Shown here piece by piece: positions 10,299-64,000 of a stretch of 64,000 nucleotides of DNA. Source of the DNA: Lunularia cruciata. Lineage: Eukaryota > Streptophyta > Marchantiopsida > Lunulariales > Lunulariaceae. Position numbers and translations under genes: made by a program. Every line of letters starts with the position of its first letter. The first letter of the stretch is position 1. The notes below the pieces were generated by a model. The model did no database searches. It was not told the origin of the DNA and saw only the letters and a list, made by a program, of their open reading frames with translations. Location of the stretch: assembly GCA_948567375.1 (NCBI GenBank), contig OX419757.1, positions 74,655,836 through 74,719,835 on the forward strand, written 5' to 3'.

Positions 10299-10330
10299 CT
10301 CCCACACAACAGCCCGCGCGTTTATGCACA

Positions 10331-10377
10331 CCCCCTTCCCTTCCCTTCCCTTCCCTTCCCTTCCCTTCCGTTCCCCC
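10331..10377 (-). repeat. (GGGAA)n microsatellite in the ORMDL leader; possible G-quadruplex
   Basis: The plus strand reads as a run of TTCCC repeats; the ORMDL sense strand therefore has eight runs of three or more G, mostly spaced by AA. The run begins about 33 nt upstream of the proposed ATG (10298), so it would lie in the 5' UTR. Four or more G3 runs with 2-nt loops satisfy the usual G-quadruplex rule. A role in translation is inference. Confidence 0.7.
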
Positions 10378-10640
10378 TCGATTACAATACCACCTACAAA
10401 GCTCCTTCTTCTTCGTCGTCTCAAAATCCCCTCTCTCTACTCGCCTCTCCTCGTACTGCTCCTCCTCCTCTCTCTCCCTTCGCTGCTCCTCTCCTTTCCT
10501 TACGCCTTTCGTCGTCTTTTTCTTCTTCCCTTCTTCTTCCTTCCCTTCCTCTCCTCTCCTCTCCTCTCCTCTTCCTTCTTCCTTCTTCCGCTCCTTCAGA
10601 CTCTACTCTCTCTCTCTCACTCTCGTTCGTCTTCGAAATT
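10378..10640 (-). promoter_or_regulatory. Purine-rich ORMDL upstream/leader tract
   Basis: About 250 bp are almost pure pyrimidine on the plus strand (TTCTTC, CCTCTCCT and TCTCTC runs), so GA-rich on the ORMDL sense strand. GA/CT-rich tracts are common around plant transcription starts. No clear TATA box is seen. The transcription start probably lies within or just upstream of this tract. Confidence 0.45.
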
Positions 10641-32269: not shown

Positions 32270-32341
32270 GGGCATTTGGTCTAGTGGTATGATTCTTGCT
32301 TTGGGTGCAAGAGGCCGCGAGTTCGATTCTCGCAATGCCCC
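32270..32341 (+). tRNA. trnP-UGG: tRNA-Pro (UGG)
   Basis: The 7-bp acceptor stem GGGCATT/AATGCCC, D-arm with GGTCTAGTGGTA, anticodon stem CTTGC/GCAAG with loop TTTGGGT (anticodon TGG at 32302-32304) and T-arm GCGAG-TTCGATT-CTCGC are all intact. There is no intron and no encoded CCA. The sequence is the standard cytosolic plant tRNA-Pro; the internal A and B boxes (TGGTCTAGTGG, GTTCGATTC) are present. TTTT occurs about 20 nt downstream as a possible Pol III terminator. Confidence 0.97.
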
Positions 32342-32799
32342 CAACCCGGTTCTTCCTGAACGCTGTTTTCGACGAAAAGCGTTGGTTGGAAAATTCATTC
32401 CCTAAGGGGGTCTTCAGCGATCTCGCACGCTACGCACACCACTTTTACTTCTGAACTCTGTTTTTCGCTAATAATATCAGTTGGAACATTGCTCTACTTA
32501 TCGGCTGGCACACTGCTTTCCGAGGTCCTGTATCACATTTTAAAGATCGATGAAAACTCACCTAGTCTGAATGAGATGTCCGTCAAGTAATTTATTCCCA
32601 GCATGAACTGCTGAATCGGACACAAAAGTAAACTTTGAAGTCTTCCAAGCCAAGACTACAATAGTGATAAATGCTCACCAAGCATGAAATGTGCAAAAGA
32701 TTCGAAATTGTAACGGATGTAGACTGACATAAGAAGTATCGCATAAAGTAATGACTAAGAGGCATATGGCGTTTCCCTCATTCATATATAGTAGAAAAG
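32342..32799. other. Spacer with no recognised gene
   Basis: Nothing recognised apart from the tRNA's downstream flank. Confidence 0.5.
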
Positions 32800-33170: not shown

Positions 33171-33599
33171 ACGCTTCTATATGTATACTTTCATATACAT
33201 TCATTCATGCTCATTCATATACATACATTCAATCTTATTACTGTTCTAACGCATGCCCTAGTTACTTGGAAAAAGACTTCGGCATGTTCTGCCCAAAAGA
33301 TGCCGCTGATTTGGTTTCAAGTCCCCTAGAGCTTGTAATACCAATGAGAAGATAGATAAATGGCATTTGCCTGTTACCACGATTTCATGTCCTCATGCTA
33401 GTTGACCCAAACAGTGGCATATCTAGAGATAGCAATGTCATCTCTTCATTACGCGTCCATTTGGTCGTGTTAGCCACTATCTTACTACGGTGTGATCGAC
33501 TACATAAACGTTGTATCCTTCTTCCTACCACAAGACATTTCTATCGTTCCTCCGATTCATACTTCACTCCTCGTGCCTTCGCTTTTGCTCTTGATCAAC

Positions 33600-34022
33600 A
33601 TGAAGAGACCAGCTGTTGTGGTGCTTCTAGCGCTGGTGATGCTGACAGGCGTTTCGTCACAATTGACTTCGACGGGTTGGGTTCTGTACGTTGTTAATCT
33701 CACAAACCGTCCGTTATTTATTGATCTTTGCGTAGCAACTGGTTGTGTTCCAAAGAGTCCTCGACTTGGTTATGTTTGGAACCCAAGTTCCACGCGCAAG
33801 CTGCAGAGTGAATTCTTGTTCAGCTATCTGAGAATCAGGGATAATCTCCCTTCAGGCCCTGCAGATCAAAGTCTGTGGGGAAGGCAACTCTGGCCCGGTC
33901 AGTTGGACGGTGCGAATAATGCCAACATTCTTACCGTATCTTACAATCCATACAATCGAACCCAAGCTTATGTACGGTTCTCTGACAAACAAGGAAGAAA
34001 CGTTCTTCTTGGCAAATTCTAG
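33600..34022 (+). CDS. Small secreted protein of unknown family, 140 aa
   Basis: I do not recognise the family. From ATG 33600 the first 20 residues form a clean signal peptide (Lys-Arg start, hydrophobic VVVLLALVMLTG, cleavage likely after VSS), so the product should enter the secretory pathway; the mature part is about 120 aa. It has two closely spaced cysteines (44 and 49), a possible N-glycosylation site (NLT, 32-34) and Trp/Tyr-rich stretches such as WGRQLWPGQLDG. No transmembrane segment follows the signal. An in-frame ATG at 33492 exists, but starting there would bury the signal sequence. Single exon; stop TAG at 34020-34022. A 24-bp GC-rich palindrome follows about 107 bp later. Confidence 0.6.
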   Translation: MKRPAVVVLLALVMLTGVSSQLTSTGWVLYVVNLTNRPLFIDLCVATGCVPKSPRLGYVWNPSSTRKLQSEFLFSYLRIRDNLPSGPADQSLWGRQLWPGQLDGANNANILTVSYNPYNRTQAYVRFSDKQGRNVLLGKF

Positions 34023-38102: not shown

Positions 38103-38294
38103 GGAGGCAGTAGCATTTCGTCAATCACTTTGAGAAGTGCAACTCACTTATAATCTACGACATATCAAGACAACTCTCTGCAAATTGCAATTATATTTGC
38201 CAGTATTGTCTGCGAACTTCAATCTCCGCAAGCATTAGCTCGTATTCAACTTGGTTCAGTGATCGATTGGATTTCGAGGCTTTGCCATACGAAG

Positions 38295-39215
38295 ATGGCG
38301 ATGATTCGAGGTGGATCAGGGAGCGTTTTCGACCCCTTCTTTTCAAACAGCATCTTTGATCCGTTTGAAAACTTTCCGCTCTTTTCGTCACGCGCGTTCC
38401 CTCCGTCCATGCGAGACGTGAGCTCCGTCGCCAACACTCGGGTGGATTGGGTGGAGACGCCAGAAGCCCATCTTTTTAAAGCAGATCTTCCTGGTATGAA
38501 CACTTGGCCCTCCAATGCTCGCTCGCACTCCGATGATTTTCCTTCGGATCATCGTTGTACTTTTGGTCTATCTTGTACATCTTGTTGCGAATTTTCGTGG
38601 TACCTCCTTTTACAATAACCTTTTGCTTCAATGTTCAAAAGCAAGGACCTTCCTTTGAGTTTTCGCAGGATCCTGCGTGCTGTGTCGTAGATGAGCTTTC
38701 TAGTTCGTCATTACAATTATGCAGAGCTTGCCTGCCTACAATTATGTAGAGATTCTAGCACGTATAATAGTTGTGGTCCGTGTTTGTATCTTGTTTTACT
38801 GAACGAGTTCCAACCGGTTTCCCGTAGCATTCTCGCATTTGTATTTTATGAACGGATTTTACCGCAGGATGTGCTCTGTTGTCAATTGACATACTATTAA
38901 GCAATTTTGATGACTGACGTGCGCACTATGAAATTTCAAGGTTTGAATAAGGAAGAAATCAAAGTTCAAGTATCGGATGACAAATTTCTGAGCATAAGTG
39001 GAGAGCGCAGCAAAGAGCAGGTGAACGAGAAAGACTCATACCGTCACGTTGAACGTTCATATGGCAAGTTCCACAGGCAGTTCAAGCTGCCAGAAAATGC
39101 CAAGGCGCAGGAGGTGTCGGCCAAAATGGAGAACGGGGTTTTGACAGTCACAGTTCCGAAAACTGAAGTAACCAAGGATACACCACAAGTGCGGAATGTT
39201 GCTATTGGCAACTAG
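38295..39215 (+). CDS. HSP20: Class I cytosolic small heat-shock protein (HSP20)
   Basis: ATP-independent chaperone that binds unfolding proteins during heat stress. Two exons, 38295-38493 and 38941-39215, with a 447-bp GT-AG intron, give 157 aa. The N-terminal VFDPF..FDPFENF (11-27) is the class I signature; the alpha-crystallin domain spans about 47-140 and includes ADLPGLNKEEIKV (63-75) and NGVLTVTVPK (131-140); a C-terminal V-x-I (153-155) serves oligomer contacts. The start at 38295 is preferred over 38259 because MAxIR is the usual class I beginning. AATAAA occurs at about 39420 and 39450. An intron is unusual for class I plant sHSP genes, which are mostly intronless. Upstream HSEs agree with the assignment. 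Confidence 0.95.
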
Positions 39216-45033: not shown

Positions 45034-45299
45034 AGTGAATATATGTAGATAGAGAAATTCAGTCTGACGTTGTAGGCAATCAGAGTCCAGCAGTTATGGT
45101 ACTATGTCCAGCAGTTAGCAAGAATATGCCTTGGATATTTTCTAGAGAGTACTTCGAAACATTTTCACAGAAACAGGTTTTTCACCATTTCTGGACATAA
45201 TACATGCCTCAGTGTTCACACCATGTGGATTGTGCCTAAAAGTGAGAATCACTTGCCTTACGAATAGAACGGGCTACAGTTTCACTCTGTTTACCTGGA

Positions 45300-45870
45300 T
45301 ACTGCAGACAGTTCTCAAGCGTATTTAGGGCGATGAGATTTGAAAGCTATCAATTTAGTCGAACAGATCTAAATGTAGCCAGCAACCCGTGGCCCACACG
45401 ATTTGGAGAGCGCTACCCAAACACTGGTTGAGCATGTCTGGATCTACAGGTATGAGCACAGTAAACTTTCGCGCAAGGTAGTAATGTCTAAATGATCTAT
45501 AGTAGGGTATGAATTGTCTCTTCAGTCAAACATGCACAGAAGACCAGCTGCAAGGTGCCAATGATATATCCCATCTTCACATAGATTGAACACCTGAAGA
45601 CAAGGGGAAATAGAAGTGCAGATGGTCTGTTCCTGGAACATTGCTAAAGTGCCCTCTAGACACTCTTAGGAGACACGACAAATGGGAGCCTTGAATTGCT
45701 GTCTATGTGGAGGAATAAAACGTCTGGTATGTAGTACCTTTGACCACAACTCATGGCAGAGGAAGGGTAGAAACATTGATTCTTTCTTGATCTACATATA
45801 CAGGTTTGAGCTTTGAGACAAGACTCGTCTATACCTTGAAAGTGGTCGAAAGAAAAATTCAAAACAGAAA
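45300..45870 (+). repeat. Duplicate of the upstream flank of the 48.9-kb metallothionein
   Basis: The order ATT(T/C)AGGGC-ATG-GAT, CATGAGCACAGTAA, AATGATCTA, GAATTGTCTCT, CATGCACAGAAGACCAGCT, GAAGACAAG and GGCAGAGGAAG matches 48260-48735 with the same spacing. No MT exon follows, so it is a promoter-flank duplication without its gene, or a dead duplicate whose exons are gone. Confidence 0.6.
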
Positions 45871-46925: not shown

Positions 46926-47644
46926 TCATGTGCAGTTGCAGGGATTGCATGAACAATTGTCACCGCACTTGCATCCTTCGTAGACGCCCTCAAAACTGCA
47001 AATCCGATTGTTCAGATATATGTTAGATCAGAGTAAAGTCCGGAGTAAACTAAGCAGACTCTCAGAAACCACTCGCTATCCTCTAGCTGTGCTTCAGAAT
47101 TTATAAGTACTCCTTATCAGGCAGGTACGTGGACGTGGTGTGTATACTTGTCTGTTTCTATCGCAGCAAACAGCCATCTACCTTACATGTGTTACTGAGA
47201 AGGAGAATCATACTCTGTCATCTCAGAATCGAAGATGGCCATGGATCTCCTGGCGCTGCAGCTGTCAACGCGAAAAGCACGATCAAAGACATGATTTTCC
47301 GTTCATGCACCAGGCTGCTCTTTACACATTCCTTCTGACAAGAGATTATCTTAACTAAGCTGTAGTTGTTAGATCTACACTGAGGCGGTCCGCATAGAGT
47401 AAAGAATGAATGCATGTGTAATGGATGAATAGATAGACTGAAAACTGTCTTGGCTGGATGATTCCGTCTAACATAGACATTTGACCCTCATACCTCTTCC
47501 ACGGGCATGAATTTGCATGTGACAGTTCTGTCCAAAGAAATACTTAGCGAACAAAAGCCCATGTACTGACTAGCACTCCTACCTGTTGCCACTGCTGCAC
47601 TTGCAGGAAGCGCCGCATGAGCAACTGTTTCCGCACCCTGACAT
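46926..47644 (-). CDS. Metallothionein, array member 1 (minus), 59 aa
   Basis: Cysteine-rich cytosolic protein expected to bind Cu, Zn or Cd through thiolate clusters. Three minus-strand exons: 47644-47583 (62 nt), 47261-47214 (48 nt) and 46995-46926 (70 nt), joined by phase-2 GT-AG introns. Twelve Cys in two sets of six: C4, C8, C10, C14, C16, C22 and C45, C47, C51, C53, C56, C58. Exon 1 is one codon shorter than its paralogues (a Gly after Ser7 is missing). The linker carries Arg-Arg and Phe-Asp-Ser-Glu. It ends in Thr rather than Lys. Divergently oriented to the member at 48920. All splice sites and cysteines look intact. Metal specificity cannot be read from the sequence. Confidence 0.88.
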
Positions 47645-48919
47645 CTTGAAATGTTTGATGGAACTTGGTGAAACTCGGAGAAGAGAAACAAAGATCTGAA
47701 TGGAATATGTCTTGATTGAACAAGCAGGAAAGCGAGAACGTTTGAGCTGTGCGGGGTGCTGCTGCTGAAGATTTCGACGCCTATCTCAGCTTAAGTACCC
47801 ATTGCACAACTAGTAAACCCCGGCCATTGCAGGTTCACAGGCAGATTGTCATGATCATATCACAATTCTACATCCATCACATTTGCACTCACCCATCAAT
47901 TTCCACATTTTCAGCCCTTCGTGGCTTGAGGTCATATTTCCAGTCCAAAGTGTGACAAGAGCACGCTTTTCGCTCAACCAGACTAGCCTCCGGCGACTGG
48001 TTACAGCTTATCCTCTCCCAGCTTTATCTACTGTATCTATTAGTTAAATTTCTCTGAATAGTGGATAGGTTTTGTTTTTCGCGTCCATTGAATTCCTCTT
48101 ATAAAGTTTATTTCGAAATTGCTGATGGAAGTTCGCCAAGGCTCAAGAACTATTCAGAACTGCTAATACCTTGATAGAAAGAGCCGTCAGAAAATACGCA
48201 CAATAGTGACACTCTGTTCAAGACGACGCGTATAATTTCATAATGCTTACATTTCTCAGGCGTATTCAGGGCCATGGGATACAGCTTGTTAGTTGATTTG
48301 ACCAGATCTAGATTCGCCCCGAACTCTGACTCAGCTCAATCTAACACGGTCAGTATTTGCTTCTCTGTGCTTGCATGGTGTAATCTACAGTCATGAGCAC
48401 AGTAATTTCTGTATAGGAAGTGATAATGTAATGATCTACAGCTACATGAATTGTCTCTGTTGCGCAAACATAACATGCGCAGAGATCAGCTAAGTGGTAT
48501 TAACAGTGTATCTAGATCTCTGTCACATTAGCAAGTTGAATTCCTAACTTCAAGACAAGAGGAGTTGGACTAGACTTGTAGCTGACTTTTCCTTGGAAGA
48601 TGGCTAAAGCATCTTCTTAGGAGGCAAGGCACTAAAAACTTGAAGTTGCGACTGCAGATGAATGAGAGATTGGTATTAGTATGGCTACTACGTTAACCAC
48701 AAATTGACGTATCTCAAGGCAGAGGAAGTGCAGAGACAATGAAACTCATGTACTATCTTTCATCCGCATTCGGGAAGTCTAAATGACACCAGTGAAGGCG
48801 CTGCAATCTTCCCCACACAGCTCGAGCCTTCTAGTTTGCCTGCTTGTTGTTTAATATCAAAATCCATTTTATTTGCTTCGCTCCAGTCTACTACTTCAAG
48901 TTCTTCAGATGATTCTAAG
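47645..48919. promoter_or_regulatory. Shared divergent spacer of MT pair 1
   Basis: The 1.28 kb between two head-to-head MT starts should hold both promoters. On the member-1 side the TATA position of the other minus-strand genes is occupied by TACTTAAG (about 47791-47798), a weakened box. TGCACTC at 47884-47890 fits the metazoan metal-response core TGCRCNC but may be chance. The member-2 side lacks a clear TATA. Confidence 0.5.
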
Positions 48920-49851
48920 ATGTCAGGCTGTGGAAACTCTGGTTGCTCATGCGGTGCTTCCTGCAAGTGTAGCGGTGGAAACAGGTAAGTTTCAGGTTTA
49001 TCGCACTCAGTGTATGTTCAGATCTTTTCACCATTAGCTAAAAGGTCATTTGTTTGAACAAGGGAAGGCCCCTGGTGTACCCCAGAGGCTTTCCCTCGTT
49101 TTGAGCGCTTGCAAATATACAAAAACATGGATCATTCTCAGCACATCACTCATTGCAAATTACAAAAGCAATGAACCATGTAAATTCACGGATTCTCTTA
49201 CTGGCTTACTTACTGGCTTTAGTCTAGCAACGTCATGCTTTGAGCATATTTTGAATGGCTTTGACTGACTGCTTGTTCGACAAATCTTTTTGTTACGACA
49301 ACTTCTGCGCCAAGATGTCCATGGACAACTTCGAGTCCGAAAGGAGAGGGTATGATGCATCGATGCTCGCTGCTTTCAAGTGTTCTTTAAGTGCCAGATA
49401 AAATAAACTGAAGAAGAGCTATTGTATGGATGCTTTAACCAGAAAGACAGGTGCGATATTCTCAAGAATTGCAAATTTAGAGTCGAAGAAAGGAAACACC
49501 TTGATCCGGTGACTGACTTTTTCAGATGGCTGATCTCCTCTCAATTTTCATCTGATCTCAATTAATGCGAAGAAAAAGGACGAAAGCTAGAAAGCACTAA
49601 TTTCTCTTCACTACCAAGTGACTCCATCGGATCTGAAAGAGCAGATATGTACCCGTTAGGAAGTCGTGACGGTCAAACTCTTCCCCATCACTAGTCAGTT
49701 TGCAGGAATCCTGTAGAGTACTGAAAGTAATGCATGATTCACTCTCTATTTAATACTCCCAATCTTATCTACTGTGTGCAGCTATGAGGGCGCCAACGAA
49801 GGATGCACGTGCGGTGAAAAGTGTTCATCCAACCTTTGCAACTGCAAGTGA
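48920..49851 (+). CDS. Metallothionein, array member 2 (plus), with damaged middle exon
   Basis: Exon 1 (48920-48984, donor GTAAGT) gives six-Cys-type start MSGCGNSGCSCGASCKCSGG. Exon 3 (49782-49851, acceptor TGCAG) gives the C-terminal cluster, but the first Cys of the usual CSCNPC is kept and the second is Ser (TCC), with Leu for Pro. The linker exon is recognisable at about 49305-49349 (45 nt, donor GTATGAT intact) but has no AG acceptor at its start; the nearest AG (49313-49314) would shift the frame. Because exon 2 is normally 48 nt and bounded by phase-2 introns, splicing exon 1 to exon 3 keeps frame and would yield 44 aa with 10 Cys and no linker. AATAAA at 50078-50083. Either a linker-less MT or an incipient pseudogene. 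Confidence 0.6.
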
Positions 49852-51256
49852 GAAAAATATATCCACATATAGGCTTCTGGATCCTTCACGCTTCTAATCA
49901 CGGCAACTGCTATTGCTGGTTGCATATATAGAGATGTTCATGTTCCAGTCAGCTTAGATATGCAAAACATAAATTCCCATGGATTTAATTACACTCGCAA
50001 GGATTTAATTACGCTCGCATATATGACGATGACTCCCTCGCGTAGATCTTGTATGTACCCAACAGTTTGAACTGACCAATAAAATGGAACCAGTGATTGC
50101 CTGATTCAACTGTCTGTCGCAGAAGTATGCTACGAATTATGTTTCCGTTCTTTCTTGTGTCTAAGATTGTGATGTGTTTAAGATTGTCTATGAAGTATCG
50201 CAATTGTAGTTGTTTTAGTGTTGTTATAGTACAATGGTCTTCGAGACTATGTCGTTGATCTCGTGGAACTATAGATTATGGACCTATCGAATTACAGATC
50301 ACCAGAAATTGGTCGTTGGGATTTTGGAATAGATTTTCAACGTCTCGCAGAAATAATTGATCCTGGCACTTGGTACACTAGCCAAAACTGCTGTCCCAGA
50401 TTCTCATGGGAACAGGTAAAATTCTAATCGATAGCAATGAAACAAGGAAACTAACTTAGGTGTGATGCGAATGCCAGGAGTGATTATATTTCGAACTTTG
50501 AAATCTCCCGCTTCTTTCGTTATCAACACGTTAGATAGAACACTGTTTATGAGGGCTCCGGCGGACAGATGTTTAAATCGAAAATTCCATTGAGGTTTGG
50601 CCGTTTGGCGGACGGTCTCACAAATCGAATGACAATCATTTCGCAGTTTGTTCAGATCGAAGCCTTAAAAACGAAATCATACTACACTGGGCCACGCTGA
50701 CATGCATCAGCAATGTAGAACCGCTACTGCCTTTACCGCAATTCAGCAAGAACTGTATTTGCCCCGATTCATTACAACATTCTCCTGATGTCGGGACGTT
50801 TAATGGATAGCTTCCACCAATCGATTAAGCTTTGTCGACAGCGTCCAATCCTCTCTAATTTCCATGACTATGTAAGTTCGAAGGTTTACACGTTATCTGA
50901 AGCTTTGAGTTTGAGCTTCGAACGAACTTGCTCTGTCATTGATTCTGACATCGCTGTACTGAAACCAAGACATATCCTATATCTATTTCTGTGGGCGAAC
51001 TGTAATATGAACGTATGAATTTATTAGATTGTATCAAGTTTATGAACACCGTGCTTCTTACACAAATCTCCGAGATTTTTCTCCATCTGATCCATCTAAC
51101 TGACCGGACGAATCCGATAGGAAGTCAATCACGTGTAACTAAGACGAGAAATGATTTACACGATGTACCTCTGCTGAGAACCTACAAGGCTGCCAAGATT
51201 TGCCAAACCGTCTCACACCAAGGTCGAGATTTACATATACAAACATATCTTTGTTA
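49852..51256. other. Convergent spacer between MT pairs 1 and 2
   Basis: No recognised gene. The polyadenylation signal of member 2 (50078-50083) lies here. Short open frames show no domain. Confidence 0.5.
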
Positions 51257-51997
51257 TCATTTGCAGTTGCAAGGGTTGCATGAACAAGTCGTCCCCGCAT
51301 TTGCACCCTTCGTTGGCGCCACAAAACTGCGAAATCAATGGTTTGATACAGGTTAAATCCTGGAGTACAGTAAGGAGTAAACGAAGCAGAGCCTGAGAAG
51401 GTCCTCGCTTCACTCCAGTATTGTTTCAGAGTTGAATCATTGGTGCATGTTCGTAGCTCTGCCATATACATCAAATGATTGTTACTGCTATATGAGAATC
51501 ATACCCTGTGATCTCGGAATCGAAGATTCCCATGGACTTCTTAGAGCAGCAGCTGTAAAAAGCGAACAAACTTATCAATTGCACAGAAACTAGAACGGCA
51601 TGCTGTTAGATTCCTTGGCATAAGAGAAGTGCATGCTTTTCATACAAATGAATCACAACATAGATAGAGCGATAGAAGAAACTGAAATATGCTGTTCCAG
51701 AACCAGAACCACTAGTAAAGAACCCGTATAGAGATACTGGTTCTATTCAAAATAGACAGTGATCTTATCACCTTTCCACGGACATCCGTTCTGCTTTTGC
51801 TGGTCATTAGTCAGCAAAAGCAGATTGGATTATTCTACTGGATGGCATAAATAAGTTATACCTCTGATGACATAAATAAGTTCAGTCAGACGAATTGCAT
51901 GACGGGAAAATTTGCATGAGGACTTGACTTACCTGTCGCCGCTGCTGCAGTTGCAGGGAGCGCCGCATGAGCAAGCAGCCATTCCGCAGCCCGACAT
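51257..51997 (-). CDS. Metallothionein, array member 3 (minus), with shifted C-terminal segment
   Basis: Exons 51997-51933 (65 nt), 51552-51505 (48 nt) and 51326-51257 (70 nt) have intact GT-AG borders. Exon 1 differs from its paralogues (MAAC for NSGC, Pro and Asn near Cys15 and Cys17). In exon 3 a one-base loss near 51319 and a one-base gain near 51287 offset each other: the frame is restored, but about 13 codons between them are read differently, giving VAPTKGANAGT instead of EG.NEGCKCGDN and removing C46 and C48. The product is 60 aa with 11 Cys (C23-C24 doubled), ending normally in CSCNPCNCK. It should bind fewer metals in its C-terminal cluster. A copia element lies directly upstream of its TATA box. 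Confidence 0.8.
51784..51830. repeat. Hairpin with 19-bp arms (2 mismatches)
   Basis: The inner 13 bp TCTGCTTTTGCTG (51790-51802) and CAGCAAAAGCAGA (51812-51824) pair perfectly; ATCC/GGAT extends the outer stem. The loop is 9 nt. It lies in intron 1 of MT member 3. Confidence 0.85.
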
Positions 51998-52134
51998 GTT
52001 GGATGAATGATAAAACTTGGTGAAACTAGGAAGAAGAATTTAGGTCTGAATGGAATAATTTTGATTGAATAAGCAGGACGACGAGAAGGTTTCAGATGTG
52101 AGCCGCTGCTGAAGTTGGCGTTCTCCTATCTCAG

Positions 52135-52142
52135 TTTATATA
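52135..52142 (-). promoter_or_regulatory. TATA box of MT member 3
   Basis: TATATAAA on the minus strand lies 138 bp before the ATG, matching the box of member 5 (62860-62867, 141 bp before its ATG). The copia target-site duplication starts at the very next base. Confidence 0.8.
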
Positions 52143-52147
52143 CTCTA

Positions 52148-52604
52148 TGATGAGAACCTTTCTTCCTAGTCTTTGAAGTAGATGGTCTATCCTCAGTCAT
52201 TCTGACTTTGATGTATCAGACATCCTAGCACTCAGCTTTCCTAGTCTCACCAGAGTAGACACTCCTAATTGCACTCGGCAATATTCAACTCACTCTCTCT
52301 CTCAGAGCCTTCAAAGATAGTACACAACAGCACTCACGCAGCATGAAAGGTACCCCAGTGGGAAGCAGCATAAAACACACCCTAAACAAGGTACAAGGTG
52401 CTGGGAATGATCCTTGTATGAGAACTTACCTTAACATGAGTAGAGAGCACTCATATATATACAAAAGCAAGCTCTAGCAGGTTGCTTTGCAGAGCCCTAA
52501 TTGAGGCTGCGCCCTCACTTCACCCTAATCATGTATCTAGTCTAATCATGTATCTAGCCTAGTCATGTATCTAGTCACTAAAATAGAGATTATCACAACT
52601 AACA
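52148..52604 (-). mobile_element. 3' LTR of copia element III
   Basis: 457 bp, the partner of 56776-57232 with about five differences by eye. It holds a TATATATGA box (minus strand, near 52453-52462), so it could start transcripts running toward MT member 3, about 300 bp further on. Confidence 0.92.
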
Positions 52605-55600
52605 CTCACACTTAATGAGAGTTTAGTACTATTCCCATTTCTGCAGCACATTTTATGTGTTTATCTTTAGGTAATGCTTTTGTAAACACATCAGCTGTCA
52701 TCTCCTGTGTAGGACAGTAAACTAACTTCACTACATTCTCCTTCCCTTTCTCCTCTACAAATCTTCTTCTAATCTCAATATGCTTAGTCCTTGGGTGATG
52801 TACAGGATTTTTGCTAAGTGCTATACTTCCTGTATTGTCACATTACAATGTAGTAGGACTCTCCTGCTCAAAACCCAACTCCTTAAGAAGTCTCCTGTTC
52901 CAGATGACTTCTTAAGTAGCATTTGAGGCAGCCATAAATTCTGCCTCAGTAGTAGACAGTGCAACAGATGTTTGTTGTTTACTACGCCAGCTAATTGCTC
53001 CACCACTTAGCATGATAACATATCCACTAGTTGATCTACTGTTATCCGTGTCATCTCCCCAACTAGCATCTCTATATGCTTCAAGTGTAGAAGCAAGTAT
53101 GTTTCCTTGCTTTCTGTACTCCAAGAATGCATCTTGAGTACCCTTTAAGTACCTAAATACTCTCTTTATACCTTTCCAATGTACTTGTGTAGGGTTGCTA
53201 GTATATCTAGCTAGTGCTCCCACTGCATAGCAGACCATGGTCTTGTACAGACCATGATAAACATTAGAGAACCAAGAGCACTCTGATACAACACTTTGTC
53301 ACAGAGATTCATCTCCCCATCTATGATTCTGCTGTGCTTCCACCCTAGATCAAGAGGTGTAGAGACAAGATTCGCCTCTGTCATCTGATACTTAGCTAGT
53401 ATGGATCTCACATACTGTGGTTAACTAATTTGGATCCATCCTGCTTCTCTATCTCTGCTCACTTTAATTCCCAAAACAAGTTTTATAGGACCAAGAATAG
53501 TCATCTCAAAAACAAAACACAAGAAATCTATCACTCCTTTGATAGATTCACTGTTCCCCAACAGTAGTAGATCATCTACATATACAGCTATGTATACATC
53601 ATCTCTAGTATACACACTCATGTCAGAATCTGCTCGTTTGAAATCTTGCTCTCTCAAGTATGAGTCTAGTTTCTCATGCCAGGCTCTAGGAGCTTGCTTA
53701 AGACCATATAAGGCCTTCTTAAGAAAGCATACTTTTCCTTTGCCTTCAATATATCCATCTGGAACATCCATGTAGATAGTCTCTCTCAAATCTCCATTGA
53801 GAAAGGTTTTCACATCTAACTGCTCCACTTCCCAATCTCTCTTTGCAGCAAGAGCTAGAAGCATGCGAATAGATCCATACCTGGCAACTGGTGCAAAAGT
53901 TTCTGAATAATCTATTGATGCTTTGTGATTGAAGCCCTTTGCAACAAGTCTTGCCTTGTACTTCAGGATCTCATTCTCAGCTCCATGTTTGACCTGGTGG
54001 TAAATCAGCTAGTACCCATGTACCATTAGTCTGAAGAGACTTCTTCTCTTCTGCTATAGCCAACTCCCACTGACTCGAATCTGGTCTGAGCAAAGCTTGC
54101 TGTAAAGTGTCTGGATCACAATCTTCATGACAGATGTAAGATTCATCTAACATCTCTTCTGATAGAAAGCCAAGTCTGTCAATAGGTTTTCTATCTCTCT
54201 GTGATCTTCTTGGCTCTGTGCCGAGAAGTTTCATGTCATCTTTTGACATCTCCGGAATCTCACTCAAAGATTCTGCATCTGCAGTCTGCTTTTGGGAGTG
54301 TTCTTCTGTAGTATCAGAATCAGATACCACAGTCTGTTTAGGCCTTCTTGTGTACACCTTCAGACTCTCCTTTGGTGAACCATTAGCTTCAGGTAGAGAT
54401 TGCTCTTCTGATGATTTATCTGAAAAACTGACTCTGCAGCTTGGGAAGATAGGTCGATCAGGCTGATCATACTGATCAGCTTGCTTTTGCAACTCATCAC
54501 TGTTCTCACTCCAAGTCCTCAATTCATCAAAGAGTACATCTCTACTTCTGATGATCTGTCTAGACTTAGGATTGTATAGAAGATATCCTTTCAGTCCCTC
54601 TTCATATCCTACAAAGAGCATTCTCTCAGCTTTCTTCGTGAACTTCCTCCTTTGCTCCTTGGGAATATGAACATAGGCAGGACATCCAAAAACCTTCAAA
54701 GCTGAAAGATTAGGTTTCTTACCACTCCAGCATTCTTCAGGAGTTCTTCCTTGCAATGCTGTGGTACCATTGATATTTCTAAGGTAATTTGCAGTGCTAA
54801 TTGCAACACCCCAAAACTTTCTCTCCAGCTTGGCATGTTGGAGCATGGCCAATGCTTTGTCCACCAGTGTCCTATTTAACCTTTCTGCAACTCCATTCTG
54901 TGCAGGACTGTCTCTGGCTGTACAGTCAAGAAGGATTCCTCTCTCTCACAGAAAGGAGAGGAGTTCCTCATTCCTGTATTCTCTGCCTCCATCTGTTCTC
55001 AATCGCTTGACTTTCCTCCCAGTCTGCAACTCAGCCATGGCTACAAACTTATGGAATTTTTGCAGCACTTCATCCTTGCTTTTCATGAGATAGATAAAGC
55101 TCTTTCTATTGTAATCATCCACAAAGGAAATGTAGTAGGCTACTCCACTCAATGACTTCTCAGTCATGTATCCCCATACATCAGAATGTATGACATCTAG
55201 AACACCAGAAGCTCTAGATGAAGATTTCTTGGGGATAGGAGCCTTGTGTGCCTTACCTTCTGCACACCCAATGCAGAACTAGAGTTTTCCTTTGGGATCC
55301 AGTTTCAACCTATCCACTACCTTCTCTAAAGCATATAGGTTTTGCGATGACAAGTGCCCTAACCTCAAATGCCACAGATGGATATCATTTCTGTTTTCTG
55401 CTACCAATGCAGAATTAGAACAATCAGCTTCCATTAACTTGAACAGCTTCTCTTTGGCAGTGCCATATCCAAGGACCAGCTCTCCTTTCTTCAAAGTGCA
55501 TTGATTTCTGTTGCTTTCAAACAGAACATCCACTCCATGCTCCATGAGGCGATGTACTGATATCAAGTTCTTGGTGTAATCTGGAACATAGAGCACATCT

Positions 55601-56760
55601 TCCAAATAGCTCTTACAAGAACTTGTGTAAGATCTTCCCATGAAGGCAATAGGAACTTTGCCGGTTCCTAACACTGGATTTAGAATCCCAGGCCCACAAC
55701 GAACACTCTTGGGAATCTTCAAAGGTTGAAGAGTTGAGAACAACTCCTTCTGGTAACAGATATGAGAGGTGGCTCCAGAATCCAAGAACCATCCAGAACT
55801 GTTTGTGGACAACTGCAATTCTGCCAACATTCCACAATCTAGCTCTTCTGCTGAGTACCCCTCCTCATTGCTTTTTATCTCATTGCACTCCTCTGTGTTG
55901 TAAGCTAAACTCGGAAATTTTTGACCTCTTATTGGTTGAGGTCCCTTTCCTACCTTCTTCAGCTCTTGTTCTCTCCTTTCTCCTCTCTTGGGACATATAG
56001 GTGCAACATGACCTTTCTCATGACAGAAATAACAGATCATGTTAGCAACACTACTAACCCCTTTACCAGATTTGTCACTTTGGATTGCTCTGGTTTGCTC
56101 ACTCTTCTATCTGGCACTCTCCTTGACTGAGAAGAAGCACTGAACAGAGCAGAATCTCCCAAATCATTAAACTTCATCTCTAGGTCCTCTCTATCTCTGC
56201 TAAACACCAGCAATTTGTTTATCACATAGTCCCATGTGACAACTTCAACAGGTAGAACTTTTAGAGCTACTTTGATAGGCTGGTAGCTTGGAGGGAGAGT
56301 CCTCAAGAGATGGTTGATCTCATATTTCTCTGTAAGTGGACACCCATCCTCCTTGACACTCTTGAAGACCTTCTGTAACTTTGACAAGTGCAAAGTAAAG
56401 TCTTCACCATCTGCAAGTTTAGTGTTCCACATCCCATCCCAGATCCTACTGGAACTTTCCAGCCTCTCAATAGAGTAAAAATTCTTGAGTTTGAGCCAGA
56501 TCTCCCAACTCCAAGCATAAGTGTCTACTAGGTCTCTGATTGGCTCTTGCATAGCCCTTAGCAGAAACCTCCTAGTAGTAGAATGCTTGATTCTCTCCTC
56601 CTTGTTGGACTCAAGCTCATCTATATCATGAGCTTCTAATGCCAAGTCCAAACAGTCATAACTGTCTAGGATACACTTCACATCCAAAGCCCAGGCTTTG
56701 TAATTAGTGTTTCCTAGTTTCTCTAGGTCTCTGAGTTCTCCTATCAACCCCAATGGTGAT

Positions 56761-56775
56761 TGTGGGCCCATAACC
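56761..56775 (-). other. Primer-binding site matching the anticodon arm of initiator tRNA-Met
   Basis: Directly after the 5' LTR the minus strand reads GGTTATGGGCCCACA. Its complement contains GTGGGCCCATAACC, the anticodon stem-loop of plant initiator tRNA-Met. A site there requires a 5' half-tRNA cut in the anticodon loop, as known for Drosophila copia and yeast Ty5. Most plant copia elements instead pair with the tRNA 3' end. The ATG inside the site is in frame with gag. Confidence 0.85.
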
Positions 56776-57232
56776 TGATGAGAACCTTTCTTCCTAGTCT
56801 TTGAAGTAGATGGTCTATCCTCAGTCATTCTGACTCTGATGTATCAAACATCCTAGCACTCAGCTTTCCTAGTCTCACCAGAGTAGACACTCCTAATTGC
56901 ACTCGGCAATATTCAACTCACTCTCTCTCTCAGAGCCTTCAAAGATAGTACACAACAGCACTCACGCAGCATGAAAGGTACCCCAGTGGGAAGCAGCATA
57001 GAACACACCCTAAACAAGGTACAAGGTGCTGGGAATGATCCTTGTATGAGAACTTACCTTAACATGAGCAGAGAGCACTCATATATATACAAAAGCAAGC
57101 TCTAGCAGGTTGCTTTGCAGAGCCCTAATTGAGGCTGCGCCCTCACTTCACCCTAATCATGTATCTAGTCTAATCATGTATCTAGCCTAGTCATGTATCT
57201 AGTCACTAAACTAGAGATTATCACAACTAACA
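56776..57232 (-). mobile_element. 5' LTR of copia element III
   Basis: 457 bp, TG...CA, abutting the CTCTA target duplication at 57233-57237 and the primer-binding site at 56761-56775. Confidence 0.92.
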
Positions 57233-57237
57233 CTCTA

Positions 57238-57918
57238 TATTTGCCCTCGGTCGCTATATGAGACGTGAGAACCCATCAATATCCACATAGATTTACTGAA
57301 AGGAGGTAAGGACCCACAGCTGCTGAATTGACAAAAGGACACACAACTCTTGGCACTGGACAGGATCATAACCTAAATAGCTGGATCTTGACTAGCCAAA
57401 TCGGACAAAGCTAAAGCTAACTTATACTATCGCTACATGAAATCGACCGTGCAACACAAACCTACGGAGAACTAATCACTATTGCTATCAACAGTGAATC
57501 ACTGAGTTTCACGTACCGTACACATGGTATGATACTTGGACTCGAGAAACGGGAAACTTGGTCTAGCTAGTAATGCACGTGGTTCTTTGAACACATGGCA
57601 GTTGCCCTCTAGGTCTTTCAGAGGGCAAAGCAAATCAAAGCTTTAGAGTACTAGGAATAATGGTGGATAATATCCATAGATTTGGGGTATCAAGTGGATA
57701 GTACCTTTGACCTTAAACTCTTTTCTGTAATTGAGGACAAGGAAGTGCGGAGATCCGTCTGCAATCACAGGGAAGCTTCATAGCGAGTATATAAGATCAG
57801 CCTGCACATTGCACTCCTCAGCAACGCTCGCAAAGCAAATCCTCTGGCTTGTCTGCTTACTCAAAAAAATTCCACTCCATTATCTTAGCTCCAGTCTGCT
57901 TGTTTCAACGCTTCAAGA
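57238..57918 (+). promoter_or_regulatory. Promoter side of MT member 4 (remaining half of divergent spacer 2)
   Basis: TATATAAG at 57788-57795 lies 124 bp before the ATG. About 90 bp further up, a block TAGTACCTTTGACC..., GAGGACAAGGAAGTGCGGAGAT is shared with the flank of member 6 (about 63620-63680) and with 45735-45770. It is the best candidate for a common regulatory element. GTAC occurs twice at 57515-57523, but this 4-mer is common by chance. Confidence 0.6.
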
Positions 57919-58721
57919 ATGTCTGGCTGCGGAAACTCTGGTTGCTCATGCGGTACTTCATGCAAATGCAGCAGTGGAAATGGGTGAGTCCCATGCTCTG
58001 TCACCATATTATGCTTAAAGTTTTATTGATAGGTACAATCTCACAGGTTAGACTGATCATTGACGGATTGGAAACAGACATTTTGAGAGAATCAACGTGA
58101 AATAGGAATGCAATATCTGTCCATCAGAATTCTGTTGTATATGCTTTTTTACAATTTGAGGATGCAGAACTACTTTCAAGAAATTCCATCCTATTTGAAA
58201 AGTGAAATTGCATGTAATAAGTGTTCAGTTCTTGATAACAACGAAGTGGGCTCAAATCTTCTTCCCTAAGGCCTGTTTTTGTATTTTCTTTCCTTGAAGA
58301 TGCTACTCCAGCAAGGCCATGGACACCATTGATTCCGAAATGAGAGGGTATGATTCTCCGTCTTCCTCATTCTGTTTCTGCTAGAAGCCAGCGGACAGTG
58401 CGGCCAGAGTATTTAGCTTATATCTAGAAGTCTCTAGATACAACGAATTGTGCAGGAGGCAGTCATCTAAGGCAGGACGTTCCAGTACTACCTCTACTAG
58501 TAGATTTCAGGAGATGCAAGTTTTCCACTCGTCCAGTCTGCTGATATAACTCTCCTCTCAGAGAGATCATGATCTCCACAGAAGGAACAAATCACTCAAG
58601 GGTGGAGGTTTATTGTATCTAACATTATACGGATTTCAACTCCTGTTGCAGCTTTGAAGACACCTACGAAGGATGCAAGTGCGGCGACAACTGTTCATGC
58701 AACCCTTGCAACTGCAAGTGA
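57919..58721 (+). CDS. Metallothionein, array member 4 (plus), 60 aa
   Basis: The cleanest copy. Exons 57919-57983, 58300-58347 and 58652-58721 (65, 48, 70 nt) with GTGAGT/GAAG and GTATGA/TGCAG borders, all phase 2. Twelve Cys: C4, C9, C11, C15, C17, C23 (spacing C-4-C-1-C-3-C-1-C-5-C) and C46, C48, C52, C54, C57, C59 (C-1-C-3-C-1-C-2-C-1-C). A 22-residue Cys-free linker (24-45) is encoded mostly by exon 2. Such two-cluster proteins chelate Cu(I), Zn or Cd in the cytosol. AATAAA at 58876-58881. It does not fit the four standard angiosperm MT types well, since its linker is short. Part of the divergent pair split by the copia insertion. Confidence 0.92.
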
Positions 58722-59128
58722 TAAAATATGTTTCTTGTATAGGTATATATATATAGGTCTGGACAGGAGATTCCTCATGGTTTCTCGAGCTTCGTTTCGA
58801 GAATGACAATTCCTAAGTTGAATTAGAGACCAGGAAATCTGGTCCAAGATGTAAACTTTCAATCCTACAATCTGCAATAAAGCATCTTCACATCAGGCGA
58901 AAGCAGAATATTCTGTGTACTGTATCACCATCAAATCCTATGGAAGACTGCATGCATATATATTATGCTCATCTTCACTCGTATAAATGCGCAGCACACC
59001 GTATGAATCTGCACTTCATGTACTGCTGACATGATTGTGAGTGGTAGTGGTATTTTTATATGTTAATACGTGTAATGATCGCTATTACAATCAACTCTTT
59101 TAAGGTTTCTCAATTGATTTCATCAAGA
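58722..59128. other. 3' flank of MT member 4
   Basis: Contains the AATAAA at 58876 and no other recognised feature. Confidence 0.5.
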
Positions 59129-59174
59129 CCTTTCTCGATGAAATCAAGACCTTTCTCGATTTCATCGAGAAAGG
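59129..59174. repeat. 17-bp-arm hairpin with 12-nt loop
   Basis: CCTTTCTCGATGAAATC (59129-59145) and GATTTCATCGAGAAAGG (59158-59174) are exact complements. The loop repeats the AAGACCTTTCTC block, and GATTTCATCAAGACC precedes it, so the structure arose by local copying plus inversion. Confidence 0.88.
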
Positions 59175-61060
59175 CTTAAATGAATATAAAAGAGATGAAA
59201 CTGTAGATGTGTAATATCATTCAATAATAATAATAACTCTTATTTGCTCTAAACCTTATAATCCCAAACCCTAGGTTACAGTCAAGTTTAATCAAGCGTA
59301 GTTATAATCAAGTCACAGGAACATACATCTTACCCTAAATTTAGGAGGATTTCCTTGGCACATTCATTCACAAGAGTTACCCGTCACCCGCAACGAGTCC
59401 TGAATGATTTTGTGAAACATATTGCTGGAACATTAATATGTTCTTCCGTTGCATAGTGAATAGTAAACCTAAATCAAAATTCAACCCCTCAATGTTCAGG
59501 TGCCGCTTGCAGTAATTATAGGTACATTCAGTTTCAAATTTCCTTGACTCTGTCACAGTATTTCACTGTTGCCGAATTAAGTAGACCCTGCCCTGCTGTA
59601 TAGCAGCACTCGAGATTGTGCAGATAGATTTAAGCCATGTCGTTTCATTTCTTTTCTTGCAGCCAAATATACATTTAAAAAATATATTATAACTGATGAA
59701 ATTTCATATAGTTTATAATTTTATTTATGATTTATCTACAAGCAGTAACTTTGAAATTGTTCTTGTTATCATTATTAAGGATCCTCATTGCACCTAATAA
59801 TCTTTTTAGAAAATTATAAGTATATATATCATAGATATGTACTAGGTTTTGAAATAATTGAATAAAATTTAAATAAAAAAGAGATTCAATGTCTAATATA
59901 TCCACCAACATAGATAATAGATTACTAATTATAATGAATACTTATTATAATTCTTTGTGTGTCTCTCATCTTTTCGGGCTCGCATGTCCTTGCTTTTGCA
60001 TCTAAGGCTTTGGAACGTCGCAGGAAAGCACACATGAATTGATGAGCATTGCATGCGTCTTTCTTACATTTCATCTCAGAATGTGAAATCAAAACTCGAT
60101 TTCAACTTACCAACGGACGTAGCTCCGGTAATCCGAATGTAAAGGGGAGACGGAAAATGCCATTTTAGTTCAATTTTGCCCCGTACGTTGATGGACCCGC
60201 TGGCAGGGCATAAATTTCTACCTGTAAACTCCTCCACCTCGGGTGCAGTAGTATATGTGGCAAAATTTTGTACATCTCAAGTGTGCAAGATTGAGCAGAG
60301 TGCCCTTTTAGTACTATATTGCACCACATATCACTACATGCACCAAATTATCTATGCCATATGTAGAAGCAGTTTTCTCCCAGCATTTCAAGCAGTCCTT
60401 GAAAGAAGAGGAGAGCAAGACTGACGAGGGTTCCTCTTCAATAGCGAATTCCGGCACCAAGTTATTGGTGCCATATGTAGAAGCAATTTTCTCCCTTTCT
60501 TGAGTAGAAAAAATCTAGTGAGAGTAACCTGTATATGAGACTCGCATGTGGAAACAATGATATGTCGAGTATGTACAGCCAGAGTTTATGCAAACGAAAA
60601 TGTGTGATGTTTTGTCAGCATGCTGAACAGGATCGAAACAGTGCAGTTTACGAACTGCCTAACTCCAGCAACTTGCAGACCAAAAGGACATCCACAATGG
60701 AAGAAACTGCAGAAAAGGAGCAGGCAGAAGAATGCAAAGGTCAATGTGGGTCGATAAGGTATGAAAAACTAAGCAACACTGTGAAATGCAAAACGCTCCC
60801 AAGATGAAGCCATGGTTTTACTGGAAGAATGAAGAAAGTCTTTAAATAATGAAATGAAATATAAAGCGCCCGAAGAGCCAACGAGTCAAAAGGTTTAGAA
60901 ATATAATACAAAACACGTATAAAATGTGAACCTAGTGCATCTGACCAATATGTAACAAATTGGTTTGATATAAATTAATCTATCTCATATATTTCACTAA
61001 CATTAAAGTTTCAATTTGTGAGAAAATTTAGAAATCACTACAAATAAAAAGAATATGAAA
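59175..61060. other. AT-rich convergent spacer, nothing recognised
   Basis: A degenerate 25-bp direct repeat (CCATATGTAGAAGCA..TTTTCTCCC) lies at about 60358 and 60471. Open frames at 60176-60424 and 60535-60807 show no domain. Confidence 0.45.
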
Positions 61061-61324
61061 GAACAGAGCTCAATGGAGTGCAAGATCCACTTTTTCCGCT
61101 TGGCAGAATTTGAGAGCCACTTGTAATGATAAATAGTGAAAAAAAAAGGAAAGAAATGATAGTTCTTGCATGTCTAAATTGGCTCCAAGAAAGAACAGGG
61201 CTGAATGAGGCCCAAGATCCACTCTTTCCACTTGCTGAATTCGAGAGTCAATGGTAGTGCCAAATTGTGATAGAACGTATGAAGGAAATTATAGGTCCTG
61301 CGTATCCAAATTGGGAGGTCATTG
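61061..61324. repeat. Diverged tandem duplication, period 132 bp
   Basis: GAACAG(A/G)GCT(C/G)AATG..G..CAAGATCCACT(T/C)TTTCC(G/A)CTTG begins at 61061 and 61193. The copies share their full length with moderate divergence. Confidence 0.65.
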
Positions 61325-62023
61325 GAGCAACTAGTTATTGCTACAGGAACTAACATGATGTAATAATCTTTCTCCCACTCAGATATAGACTAATTGATAC
61401 CAAAAATCTTATTAAATTTCTAAACTAGATAAAAGAAAGGAGTTACAGAAGATGCGGACGAGGACAATACTTACCAGCAATCACTAGAGTACAAGCAATA
61501 ATAGAATGATTTATACAAGAATAACGGAAAGTTGACATCCACACCAATAATCTCAAATCTGTGAAAACAATATAAACTTATCGCATAAACTAATTATCGT
61601 GTCTAACTATATAAAAAATATCATCCAGTAATCCATGTCTCCCAAGCTTTGACAATGTATTGTATTGCGTGTAGTATTTTTCATCCGATTTTGGTCTTAC
61701 AGAACAAAAGGTAACACATCCCATGTCTCCAAATCCAACGATGTGACATATTATTATTTAATGAACACTGATGTTTTATTTCAGTCTGTCAACATCGAAA
61801 CATCTTGATTTCATATACAAGTCTGTGACAATTGATCGCCAGATCCTGGACTAGATGACTGGACGCAGCCTGATGTTCCTGTACATCATGTAAATCGAGA
61901 AAGACTGCTAGCAGCAAAGCAAGGTACTTATTATCCAGGCCATATGAAATAGCCAAGGTGATGAACCTGGCGATATAGCACAATAAGGTGGAGACGTATA
62001 TAGAAGCAAGAATACTGATACTA
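61325..62023. other. Spacer with no recognised gene
   Basis: Nothing recognised other than the 3' flank of MT member 5. Confidence 0.45.
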
Positions 62024-62719
62024 TCACTTGCAGTTGCAAGGGTTGCATGAACAATTGTCACCGCACTTGCATCCTTCGTTGGCGCCCTCAAAACTGCAAA
62101 ACCAATGCTTCAAACACATGGTAAATGGTATAGTAGGAGTAAATAAGAAACACAATCTTAAGATTCACTCGCCAAACTGTCTTAGTGAATCTTAATCAAT
62201 ACCAGGCATGAGCGTGCACGTTATTAACATTATTTCAGCAGCAGGCATTGCCTTTTCCATTTCTTTGGAATCAATGTTTATGAGTTGGGAGATCCATACC
62301 CTGTCATATCGTGATCGAAGAAGGCCATGGACCCCTTGGAACAGCAGCTGTCAGCAATGAACAATCATAATAATACATGATTTTCTGCACAAACACAAGC
62401 ATGCTATTCCCGCCCAAATGTCTACTGAGTAGATCTGGACACGTAGCACTCCGCATATATTCGTGCAAAGGAAATATTCAAACAGATGGAAAAGTGGGAT
62501 CGTCTGTCTTCTGGGCTGGTTCTATTGAAAATTGGAAATTGAGGTGGTGATGTCTCACCACCTCAAAGCAGATGCATCGAGTTTCTGGTGACTGTTCTCC
62601 TAACGCGCATGAAATGCATGCATCGTGACCAGATTCCATGGACAGACCACATACCTGTTACCGCTGCTGCACTTGCAGGAAGCGCCACATGAACAACCAG
62701 AGTTTCCGCAGCCTGACAT
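62024..62719 (-). CDS. Metallothionein, array member 5 (minus), 60 aa
   Basis: Exons 62719-62655, 62346-62299 and 62093-62024 (65, 48, 70 nt), phase-2 GT-AG introns. Thirteen Cys: the twelve of member 4 plus C24, giving a Cys-Cys pair at the start of the linker as in member 3. Linker residues include KGSMAFFDHDMT, with two His/Asp-type side chains that could add metal ligands. The C-terminal cluster is identical to member 4 from GCKCGDN onward. It is intact and likely functional. TATATAAA (minus) lies 141 bp before the ATG. Head to head with the member-6 pseudogene. Confidence 0.92.
62158..62195. repeat. 12-bp-arm hairpin, 14-nt loop
   Basis: TTAAGATTCACT (62158-62169) and AGTGAATCTTAA (62184-62195). 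It lies in intron 2 of MT member 5. Confidence 0.8.
62539..62566. repeat. 12-bp-arm hairpin, 4-nt loop
   Basis: TTGAGGTGGTGA and TCACCACCTCAA flank TGTC. It lies in intron 1 of MT member 5; the matching intron of member 3 also carries a hairpin (51784-51830), of unrelated sequence. Confidence 0.85.
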
Positions 62720-62859
62720 CTTGGAATGTTTGATAGGAGCTTGATGACACTAGGAACAAAGTTACAGATTTGAATGGAATAGATTTCGATTGAACAAGCC
62801 GGAGAACTAGAAGGTTTGAGCTTGGTGAGTGCTGCTGAAGATTGTGCAATTCCTCCGAC

Positions 62860-62867
62860 TTTATATA
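62860..62867 (-). promoter_or_regulatory. TATA box of MT member 5
   Basis: TATATAAA on the minus strand, at the same distance from the ATG as in member 3. Confidence 0.78.
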
Positions 62868-63491
62868 CTCGTCTGACTCAGATGTCTATGTCCACCCTCC
62901 GCCAGTAGTGGCCAACGTGGAGATCGAACTCACAGCAAAATCCATATATGATAATTCAGAAAGGGTGAGGACTTATCTTTAGCTCAACTGTTCATAAGGA
63001 GACATGTAACTCGTGTCCCTTGACCGGACCAGTCCGTGTAATATATTTTAACTTCTTCCGACCTATTTCTTTGTTTCGGGTGTGCAGAGAGCTAATGGGA
63101 GTTCCCACTTCCGTATTTGGCAAGCAGCCATGGTAAATAGCTCATGTACGTTAGCGCATCTTTCCTATTGATGTAAGAAATTCAACATAGATTGAGGGGT
63201 TTCGCAGAGGCGTATGACATTGCACTTGTATCCAGTCCATGAATACGTACTTGTTTCCATGTATATCAGAGATCTATTTCGTTGTGCCCGTCGCCGAAAT
63301 GTCATGAACGTATGGGCACAAGTGCTAGCTACAATAGATCACTCCGCCTCGAATAATCATAAACATGTGTGAATACAAGTAGAGACCCAAGGAAAGGACT
63401 GGTAATGCCGGTCGTTCGTGGCTTCGGACACAGCGAAAGTGACCTCTAGCCATTCTGAGAAGGCAAGCGCGGTTTAGTGTGAATTACAGTT

Positions 63492-63650
63492 GCTGTGAAT
63501 AATTGGTGGAGAAGATCCATAGATTGGGTAAGGGTATAGGTATAGTGTTTTGACCACCAGCTCACGTTATTTACTGTGAATAATTGATGGAGAAGACCCA
63601 CAAATTGGGTGACGGTATAGGTATAGTATCTTCGACCACCGATTCTCGTT
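63492..63650. repeat. 81-bp tandem duplication upstream of MT member 6
   Basis: TGTGAATAATTGGTGGAGAAG starts at 63494 and TGTGAATAATTGATGGAGAAG at 63575; both continue through GGTATAGGTATAGT and CGACCACC/TGACCACC. The duplicated block contains the conserved GACCAC element shared with member 4 and the 45.7-kb copy. Confidence 0.75.
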
Positions 63651-63904
63651 CATTAAGGCAAGGGAAGTGCTGAGATCGCTTTTACGCCAATCACAGGGGA
63701 GTTTCATCTTGATGTTTGGTGAGTATATATTCAGCTTGGAAATTGCAGTCTTCAGCAACACAGCACACCTTCTGGTTGTCTGCCAACTCCATCTATATGC
63801 GCAAAGTAAATCCTCTGGCTTGTCTGCGTACTCTACAAAGATTCAAGTCCATTATCTTAGCTTCAGTCTGTAGTTTCAACGTTGAGTCACTATCCACTTC
63901 AAGA

Positions 63905-64000
63905 ATATCTGGCTGCGGAAACTCTGGATGCTCATGCGGTATTTCCTGCTAATGCAACTGTGTGGAAATGGGTGAGTCCCATGCTCTGGCACCATATTAT
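63905..64000 (+). pseudogene. Metallothionein, array member 6 (plus), exon 1 pseudogene, runs off the window
   Basis: The sequence aligns with exon 1 of member 4, but the start codon is ATA (63905-63907), an in-frame TAA follows the fourth cysteine codon, and the last part is shifted by inserted bases. The donor GTGAGT (63972) and the downstream 20 bp are conserved. Upstream, a TATATAT box near 63724 and the shared block remain. Later exons lie beyond the right edge. As read, it cannot make an MT from this exon. Confidence 0.8.

Follow-up and report, generated by a model that had tools for sequence, protein, structure and literature searches.

Plant metallothioneins (MTs) are distinguished by their cysteine motifs, with type 1 carrying Cys only as Cys-X-Cys in both terminal domains and type 2 carrying N-terminal Cys-Cys and Cys-X-X-Cys motifs (PMC4382971), while the four MT-like genes reported from Physcomitrella (Pakdee 2019, via PMC8070800) are described as lying outside the four angiosperm types. 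Local duplication raises MT copy number in the tandem CUP1 arrays of yeast (PMC4232551), and divergent paralogous pairs are a known plant arrangement, as in maize Def1/Def2, head-to-head paralogues encoding small proteins with an intergenic region of ~1 kb (PMC5301941); a gene pair is regarded as bidirectional when its transcription start sites (TSSs) lie within 1 kb (PMC2648788). Here we describe an MT array in a 64,000-nucleotide stretch of the Lunularia cruciata genome (assembly GCA_948567375.1, contig OX419757.1, positions 74,655,836–74,719,835 of the forward strand; hereafter the window), in which six MT copies in the orientation - + - + - + form three divergent pairs (g1-/g2+, g3-/g4+ and g5-/g6+). 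The array resembles Def1/Def2 in its head-to-head small-protein paralogues and intergenic distance, and CUP1 in its locally duplicated MT copies. It differs from the maize pair in having three consecutive pairs, one of them split by a Copia element, and in that its bidirectional activity is putative, and from CUP1 in that its copies are not tandem duplications but alternate, are diverged and are partly damaged. We consider it probable that this is an old array which arose from an inverted pair, was duplicated as pairs and is now undergoing birth-and-death evolution. Among the matches listed in open-licence literature, no title or abstract opening was found to describe a head-to-head MT array, a weak negative given that scope, and two peptide strings from the sequence were not found in open-licence papers.

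The six copies and their products

Full three-exon models, derived from common splice sites, were obtained for five of the six copies; g6 is truncated by the end of the window.

46926–47644, minus strand: MT gene g1; exons 47583–47644, 47214–47261 and 46926–46995; 59 amino acids (aa), 12 Cys; frame and splice sites intact; no TATA match
48920–49851, plus strand: damaged MT gene g2; exons 48920–48984, 49302–49349 and 49782–49851; exon 2 acceptor AA, not AG; loss of one C-terminal Cys; no TATA match
51257–51997, minus strand: altered MT gene g3; exons 51933–51997, 51505–51552 and 51257–51326; exon 3 with two single-base indels of opposite sign; 11 Cys remaining
57919–58721, plus strand: MT gene g4; exons 57919–57983, 58300–58347 and 58652–58721; 60 aa, 12 Cys; intact; TATA-like box at 57788
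62024–62719, minus strand: MT gene g5; exons 62655–62719, 62300–62347 and 62024–62093; 60 aa, 13 Cys; intact; TATA-like box at 62862–62867
63905–64000, plus strand: MT pseudogene g6; exon 1 and the start of intron 1 only; ATA for ATG; Cys domain interrupted by an in-frame stop; truncated at the window end

A motif scan of the window placed MT-like Cys domains at 46.9, 47.6, 58.7 and 62.0 kb, which repeat comparison tied to additional MT copies. Exon hidden Markov models (HMMs) run over the 64 kb identified six copies of exon 1 and five each of exons 2 and 3, with weakest E-values of 1.4e-18, 1e-12 and 3.7e-21, respectively, and with all matches outside the MT copies at E 0.0058 or worse. These models were built from the MT copies themselves, so that training copies match by construction; the motif scan and tblastn recover the same places. 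Together, these searches confirm the six copies alternating as three divergent pairs that were proposed in an earlier note on this stretch, whose positions correspond to exon 3 of the minus genes and exon 1 of the plus genes. The traits said there to unite the minus members hold in part: doubled Cys is present in g3 and g5 and absent from g1; FEG..NEG is in frame in g5 only, with FEGVYEG in g1, a frameshift in g3 and YEGANEG in plus-strand g2; and the KSM linker appears as K.SM in g3 and g5 and also in plus-strand g2, while g1 has RRSM.

Exon sizes are similar across the five full copies (exon 1, 62–65 nt; exon 2, 48 nt; exon 3, 70 nt), both introns are in phase 2, and splice dinucleotides are GT/AG in all 20 cases except the exon 2 acceptor of g2 (1 of 10 acceptors). 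The predicted products have 59–60 aa, 11–13 Cys and two Cys domains, so that all five would be metallothioneins in the broad sense of small, Cys-rich, two-domain proteins, with metal binding predicted. The C-terminal CxCxxxCxCxxCxC domain resembles the end of PF01439 (Metallothio_2), a family covering plant MT types 1–3; the MT copies differ from that family in an N-terminal C-x4-C-x-C-x3-C-x-C domain with one Cys outside the CxC pairs and in one or two Cys within the short linker. Of three proteins scored against the curated Pfam cut-off of 23 bits, g1 lies above (25.5) and g4 and g5 lie below (21.3 and 21.6). The lone N-terminal Cys of g1–g5 (with x3 for x4 in g1) departs from the Cys-X-Cys-only pattern of type 1 as defined in PMC4382971, as does the exon 2 linker, with one Cys (g1, g2, g4) or two (g3, g5), from its Cys-free central spacer; neither of the type 2 motifs occurs in exon 1 of any of the five. 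The Physcomitrella genes may be the nearest comparison. A search of solved structures with g5 alone returned a single weak match, to the EC protein (E 2.2).

Evidence for duplication as pairs

If orientations were random, six copies would alternate strictly with a probability of 2/64. Alternation is in itself weak evidence, and the case for pair duplication is carried by the homology of the divergent spacers.

47645–48919, no strand assigned: divergent spacer of pair 1; 1275 bp
51998–57918, no strand assigned: divergent spacer of pair 2; carries a Copia insertion; 831 bp without Copia
62720–63904, no strand assigned: divergent spacer of pair 3; 1185 bp

The distal, plus-side half of the spacer is similar between pairs 1 and 2 (z 12.5) and pairs 2 and 3 (z 15.5), and the minus-distal part is similar between pairs 2 and 3 (z 8.6), marginally so between pairs 1 and 2 (7 of 200 shuffles) and not between pairs 1 and 3. 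Closer to the genes, similarity holds in all three comparisons, both for the final 200 bp of the plus side and for the initial 130–150 bp of the minus side. Since the spacers are homologous between pairs 1 and 2 and pairs 2 and 3, the whole pair was probably the duplicated unit. The two ends of each spacer are, moreover, inverted copies of one another (z 10.2, 12.9 and 6.0). Each gene thus comes with a core promoter and leader of its own, and inverted duplication is the simplest origin for the pair. The 145 bp before the start (TATA-to-ATG leaders), which are similar in 10/10 gene pairs including those across strands (0 of 200 shuffles each), also fit this origin.

A combined exon and promoter alignment, which g6 enters with exon 1 and promoter only, groups the plus copies in 97% of 200 bootstraps and rejects the topology in which neighbours within a pair are closest relatives (log-likelihood difference, deltaL, 69.5; approximately unbiased test, p-AU 2.3e-39), the tree that the earlier note had named as the one that would speak against its proposal of a bidirectional pair as the duplicated unit. 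By partition, support for grouping by strand is 80% for the exons alone (five genes), 93% for exon 1, 89% for promoters and 62% for exon 2. In quartets, which are not mutually independent, the strand topology is best in 12/12 (3 coding, 9 promoter), with p-AU <0.05 against both alternatives in four, against one alternative in one more and against neither in seven; the close relation of g4 and g6 is the strongest signal. The proposal of pair duplication is thus supported by quartets, tree and spacers, and the two strand clades expected with it were recovered in part in our partial check of exons, promoters and spacers, the strand tree being best throughout but both rivals being rejected in only 4/12 quartets and exon 3 not following strand.

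Gene bodies add further similarity on the minus strand, where copies can be aligned end to end (g1–g5, 64% over 1022 columns; g1–g3, 61% over 1112 columns). Intron 2 is similar in all three minus-copy pairs (0 of 200 shuffles each), intron 1 in g1–g5 (0 of 200) and g1–g3 (4 of 200), and the 3' flank in two of the three pairs by shuffle test; among 12 cross-strand intron comparisons, the lowest value was 17 of 200 shuffles. Sequence to the left of g1 may extend the array.

45299–45779, plus strand: relic of an MT spacer, plus side; aligns to 48240–48742 at 62.6% over 532 columns

In local alignments to the three spacers, the relic gave z values of 42.8, 5.2 and 4.4, with 0, 0 and 1 of 200 shuffles reaching the score, and it matches in sense orientation only (97, 173 and 45 of 200 shuffles for the reverse complement). 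BLAST against the upstream regions gave no match for g4 and 38 bp for g6. The relic occupies the position expected for the region upstream of a plus gene if another pair had stood to the left of g1, and is a probable trace of a fourth MT pair. The exon HMMs found no MT exon beside it at E <1, and no further MT traces were found in 1–46800 at E 1e-4.

Several observations weigh against duplication as pairs. Between pairs 1 and 3, the plus-side half of the spacer shows no similarity (z 0.6) and distal similarity is undetected (148 and 65 of 200 shuffles), so that these pairs are linked only via pair 2, the relic and the proximal parts; the convergent spacers, examined as a repeated unit, show no mutual similarity at E 0.01. 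The g3–g5 comparison is not significant for intron 1 (33 of 200 shuffles) or the 3' flank (19 of 200), and the introns and 3' flank of g2–g4, the sole plus-strand pair with introns to compare, are without detectable similarity (z 0.5–0.9; 38 to 63 of 200 shuffles). Since g2 and g4 cannot be aligned while the minus copies can, the plus side appears to be of greater age or to evolve faster; this mismatch in depth between strands is not expected from simple duplication of a pair, which leaves it unexplained. The three coding quartets reject no alternative topology, exon 3 alone shows no strand clades and groups across strands, and the tree is unrooted, without an outgroup. These observations would in part be accommodated by an independent or mixed origin, in which minus copies have either spread or been made alike through gene conversion of the gene body, plus copies being older and the alternation partly accidental. 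The alignable minus introns, the cross-strand clustering of exon 3 and the TATA-to-ATG identity of 0.71–0.74 in all three minus pairs versus 0.49–0.83 among plus copies are consistent with such an origin, but pairs 2 and 3 share spacer homology on both sides, and pairs 1 and 2 on the plus side, which together with a relic of the same orientation and place argues against it, and we regard it as rather unlikely.

Under the favoured history of pair duplication followed by birth and death, an inverted duplication of one MT gene, core promoter and 5' leader included, would have given a head-to-head pair, and this pair would then have been tandem-duplicated at least twice, and probably three times given the relic. 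Decay would since have affected introns, spacers and three of the copies, with the Cys exons preserved by purifying selection. The products of g1, g4 and g5 would be cytosolic thiolate proteins of ~60 aa with two Cys domains binding Cu, Zn or Cd, each gene being driven by a separate promoter located at an end of a ~0.8–1.3 kb spacer. The locus serves chiefly as a well-documented case of a metal-binding gene family in birth-and-death; with one divergent unit present three times, each at a different stage, it is also a compact setting for following the behaviour of paired paralogues.

Damage, promoters and the Copia insertion

The earlier note did not report the damage to three copies, the Copia element within pair 2 or the relic to the left of g1. 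Only g1, g4 and g5 look intact, judging from their reading frames and splice sites; g2, g3 and g6 are damaged, one per pair. This placement was considered as a meaningful pattern and set aside, because with three damaged copies of six it is expected by chance in 8/20 arrangements. The ratio of nonsynonymous to synonymous change (dN/dS) is <1 in all 10 pairs of the five full copies, ranging from 0.13 to 0.22 among g1, g4 and g5 and reaching its highest values in four pairs involving g2 (0.33–0.53), with synonymous distances that are rough owing to few sites.

That the damaged copies have been remodelled rather than lost appears unlikely. Exon 2 is 48 nt long and in phase 2 at both ends in all five models, so that skipping it would keep the frame and fuse the two Cys domains; such products are in frame in 5/5 full models, the skip form of g2 having 44 aa. 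In g3, a single-base deletion and a single-base insertion in exon 3 replace part of the C-terminal domain and restore the frame. Remodelling is consistent with these open frames and with dN/dS <1 in every comparison involving g2 or g3, but g2 has the highest ratios, has lost one Cys, lacks a TATA match and contains a cryptic AG 13 nt inside exon 2 that would shift the frame, while g3 is without some Cys ligands and its promoter region is interrupted.

TATA-like boxes lie 131–184 bp upstream of the start in four of the six copies (g3, g4, g5 and g6); none was found in g1 or g2. The interruption at g3 concerns the following features.

52137–52142, minus strand: TATA-like box belonging to g3; separated from the Copia end by 5 bp
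52148–57232, minus strand: Copia-type long terminal repeat (LTR) retrotransposon; 5085 bp; LTRs 52148–52604 and 56776–57232; target duplication CTCTA at 52143–52147 and 57233–57237

The Copia element splits the promoter region of pair 2 and is inserted at one core promoter. Its LTRs differ at only 5 of 460 columns (in a match that takes in three flanking bases), so that the insertion is recent relative to the array. Its minus-strand open reading frames (ORFs) match Retrotran_gag_2, Pol_BBD, gag_pre-integrs and SH3_retrovirus in Pfam, and the coding frame looks interrupted, being spread over several ORFs. Given the strand of these ORFs, the 3' LTR points toward g3, and LTR-driven expression of g3 is possible but unsupported. 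A scheme in which each pair holds one standard MT and one variant (for g2, a direct-fusion two-domain MT through loss of the exon 2 acceptor; for g3, a C-terminal domain in a new frame), and in which a newly arrived Copia LTR drives g3, seems very unlikely. If the spacers drive both genes, the insertion would amount to a natural experiment on promoter sharing.

The earlier note had also suggested a dose-raising array with coordinated, metal-inducible expression, in which each spacer would be one shared promoter co-inducing both members. Using TATA as a proxy for TSS, the TATA-to-TATA distance, ~856 bp for pair 3 and, with Copia removed, ~555 bp for pair 2, is below the 1 kb between TSSs given in PMC2648788, and spacers are conserved between neighbouring pairs. 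However, the boxes of pair 2 are now ~5.6 kb apart through Copia, pair 1 has no TATA match in either gene for a distance estimate, every pair has one damaged member, and none of eight cis motifs, MRE-like and GTAC included (consensus strings), is enriched in the spacers, the fewest shuffles reaching the observed count being 36 of 200. With 3/6 copies damaged and TATA-like boxes in 4/6, the sequence lends this suggestion no support, and a working amplifier appears improbable; the array reads more as an ageing gene family than as a proven dose amplifier.

Minor repeats were seen in two spacers. At 63490–63632, the pair 3 spacer holds two 62-nt direct repeats, 81 bp apart and 85% alike, with related sequence once in the pair 2 spacer, and the convergent spacer between pairs 2 and 3 holds an adjacent direct duplication of ~126 bp (61057–61182 and 61189–61314, 75.6% identity).

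Other features of the window

A second Copia-type fragment with an SH3_retrovirus domain lies at 17620–18030 (minus strand), and ORFs at 22562–24221 (plus strand) are similar by eye only. A partial match to the ORMDL family was found at 10011–10436 (minus strand), and a 182-codon open frame without a Pfam match lies at 33474–34019 (plus strand) and may, judged by eye, encode a signal peptide. An HSP20 domain exon is present at 38901–39212 (plus strand), with an upstream ORF at 38154–38615 that resembles its N-terminal part by eye and has no Pfam match. The sole Rfam match in the window is a tRNA-Pro (TGG) gene at 32270–32342 (plus strand).

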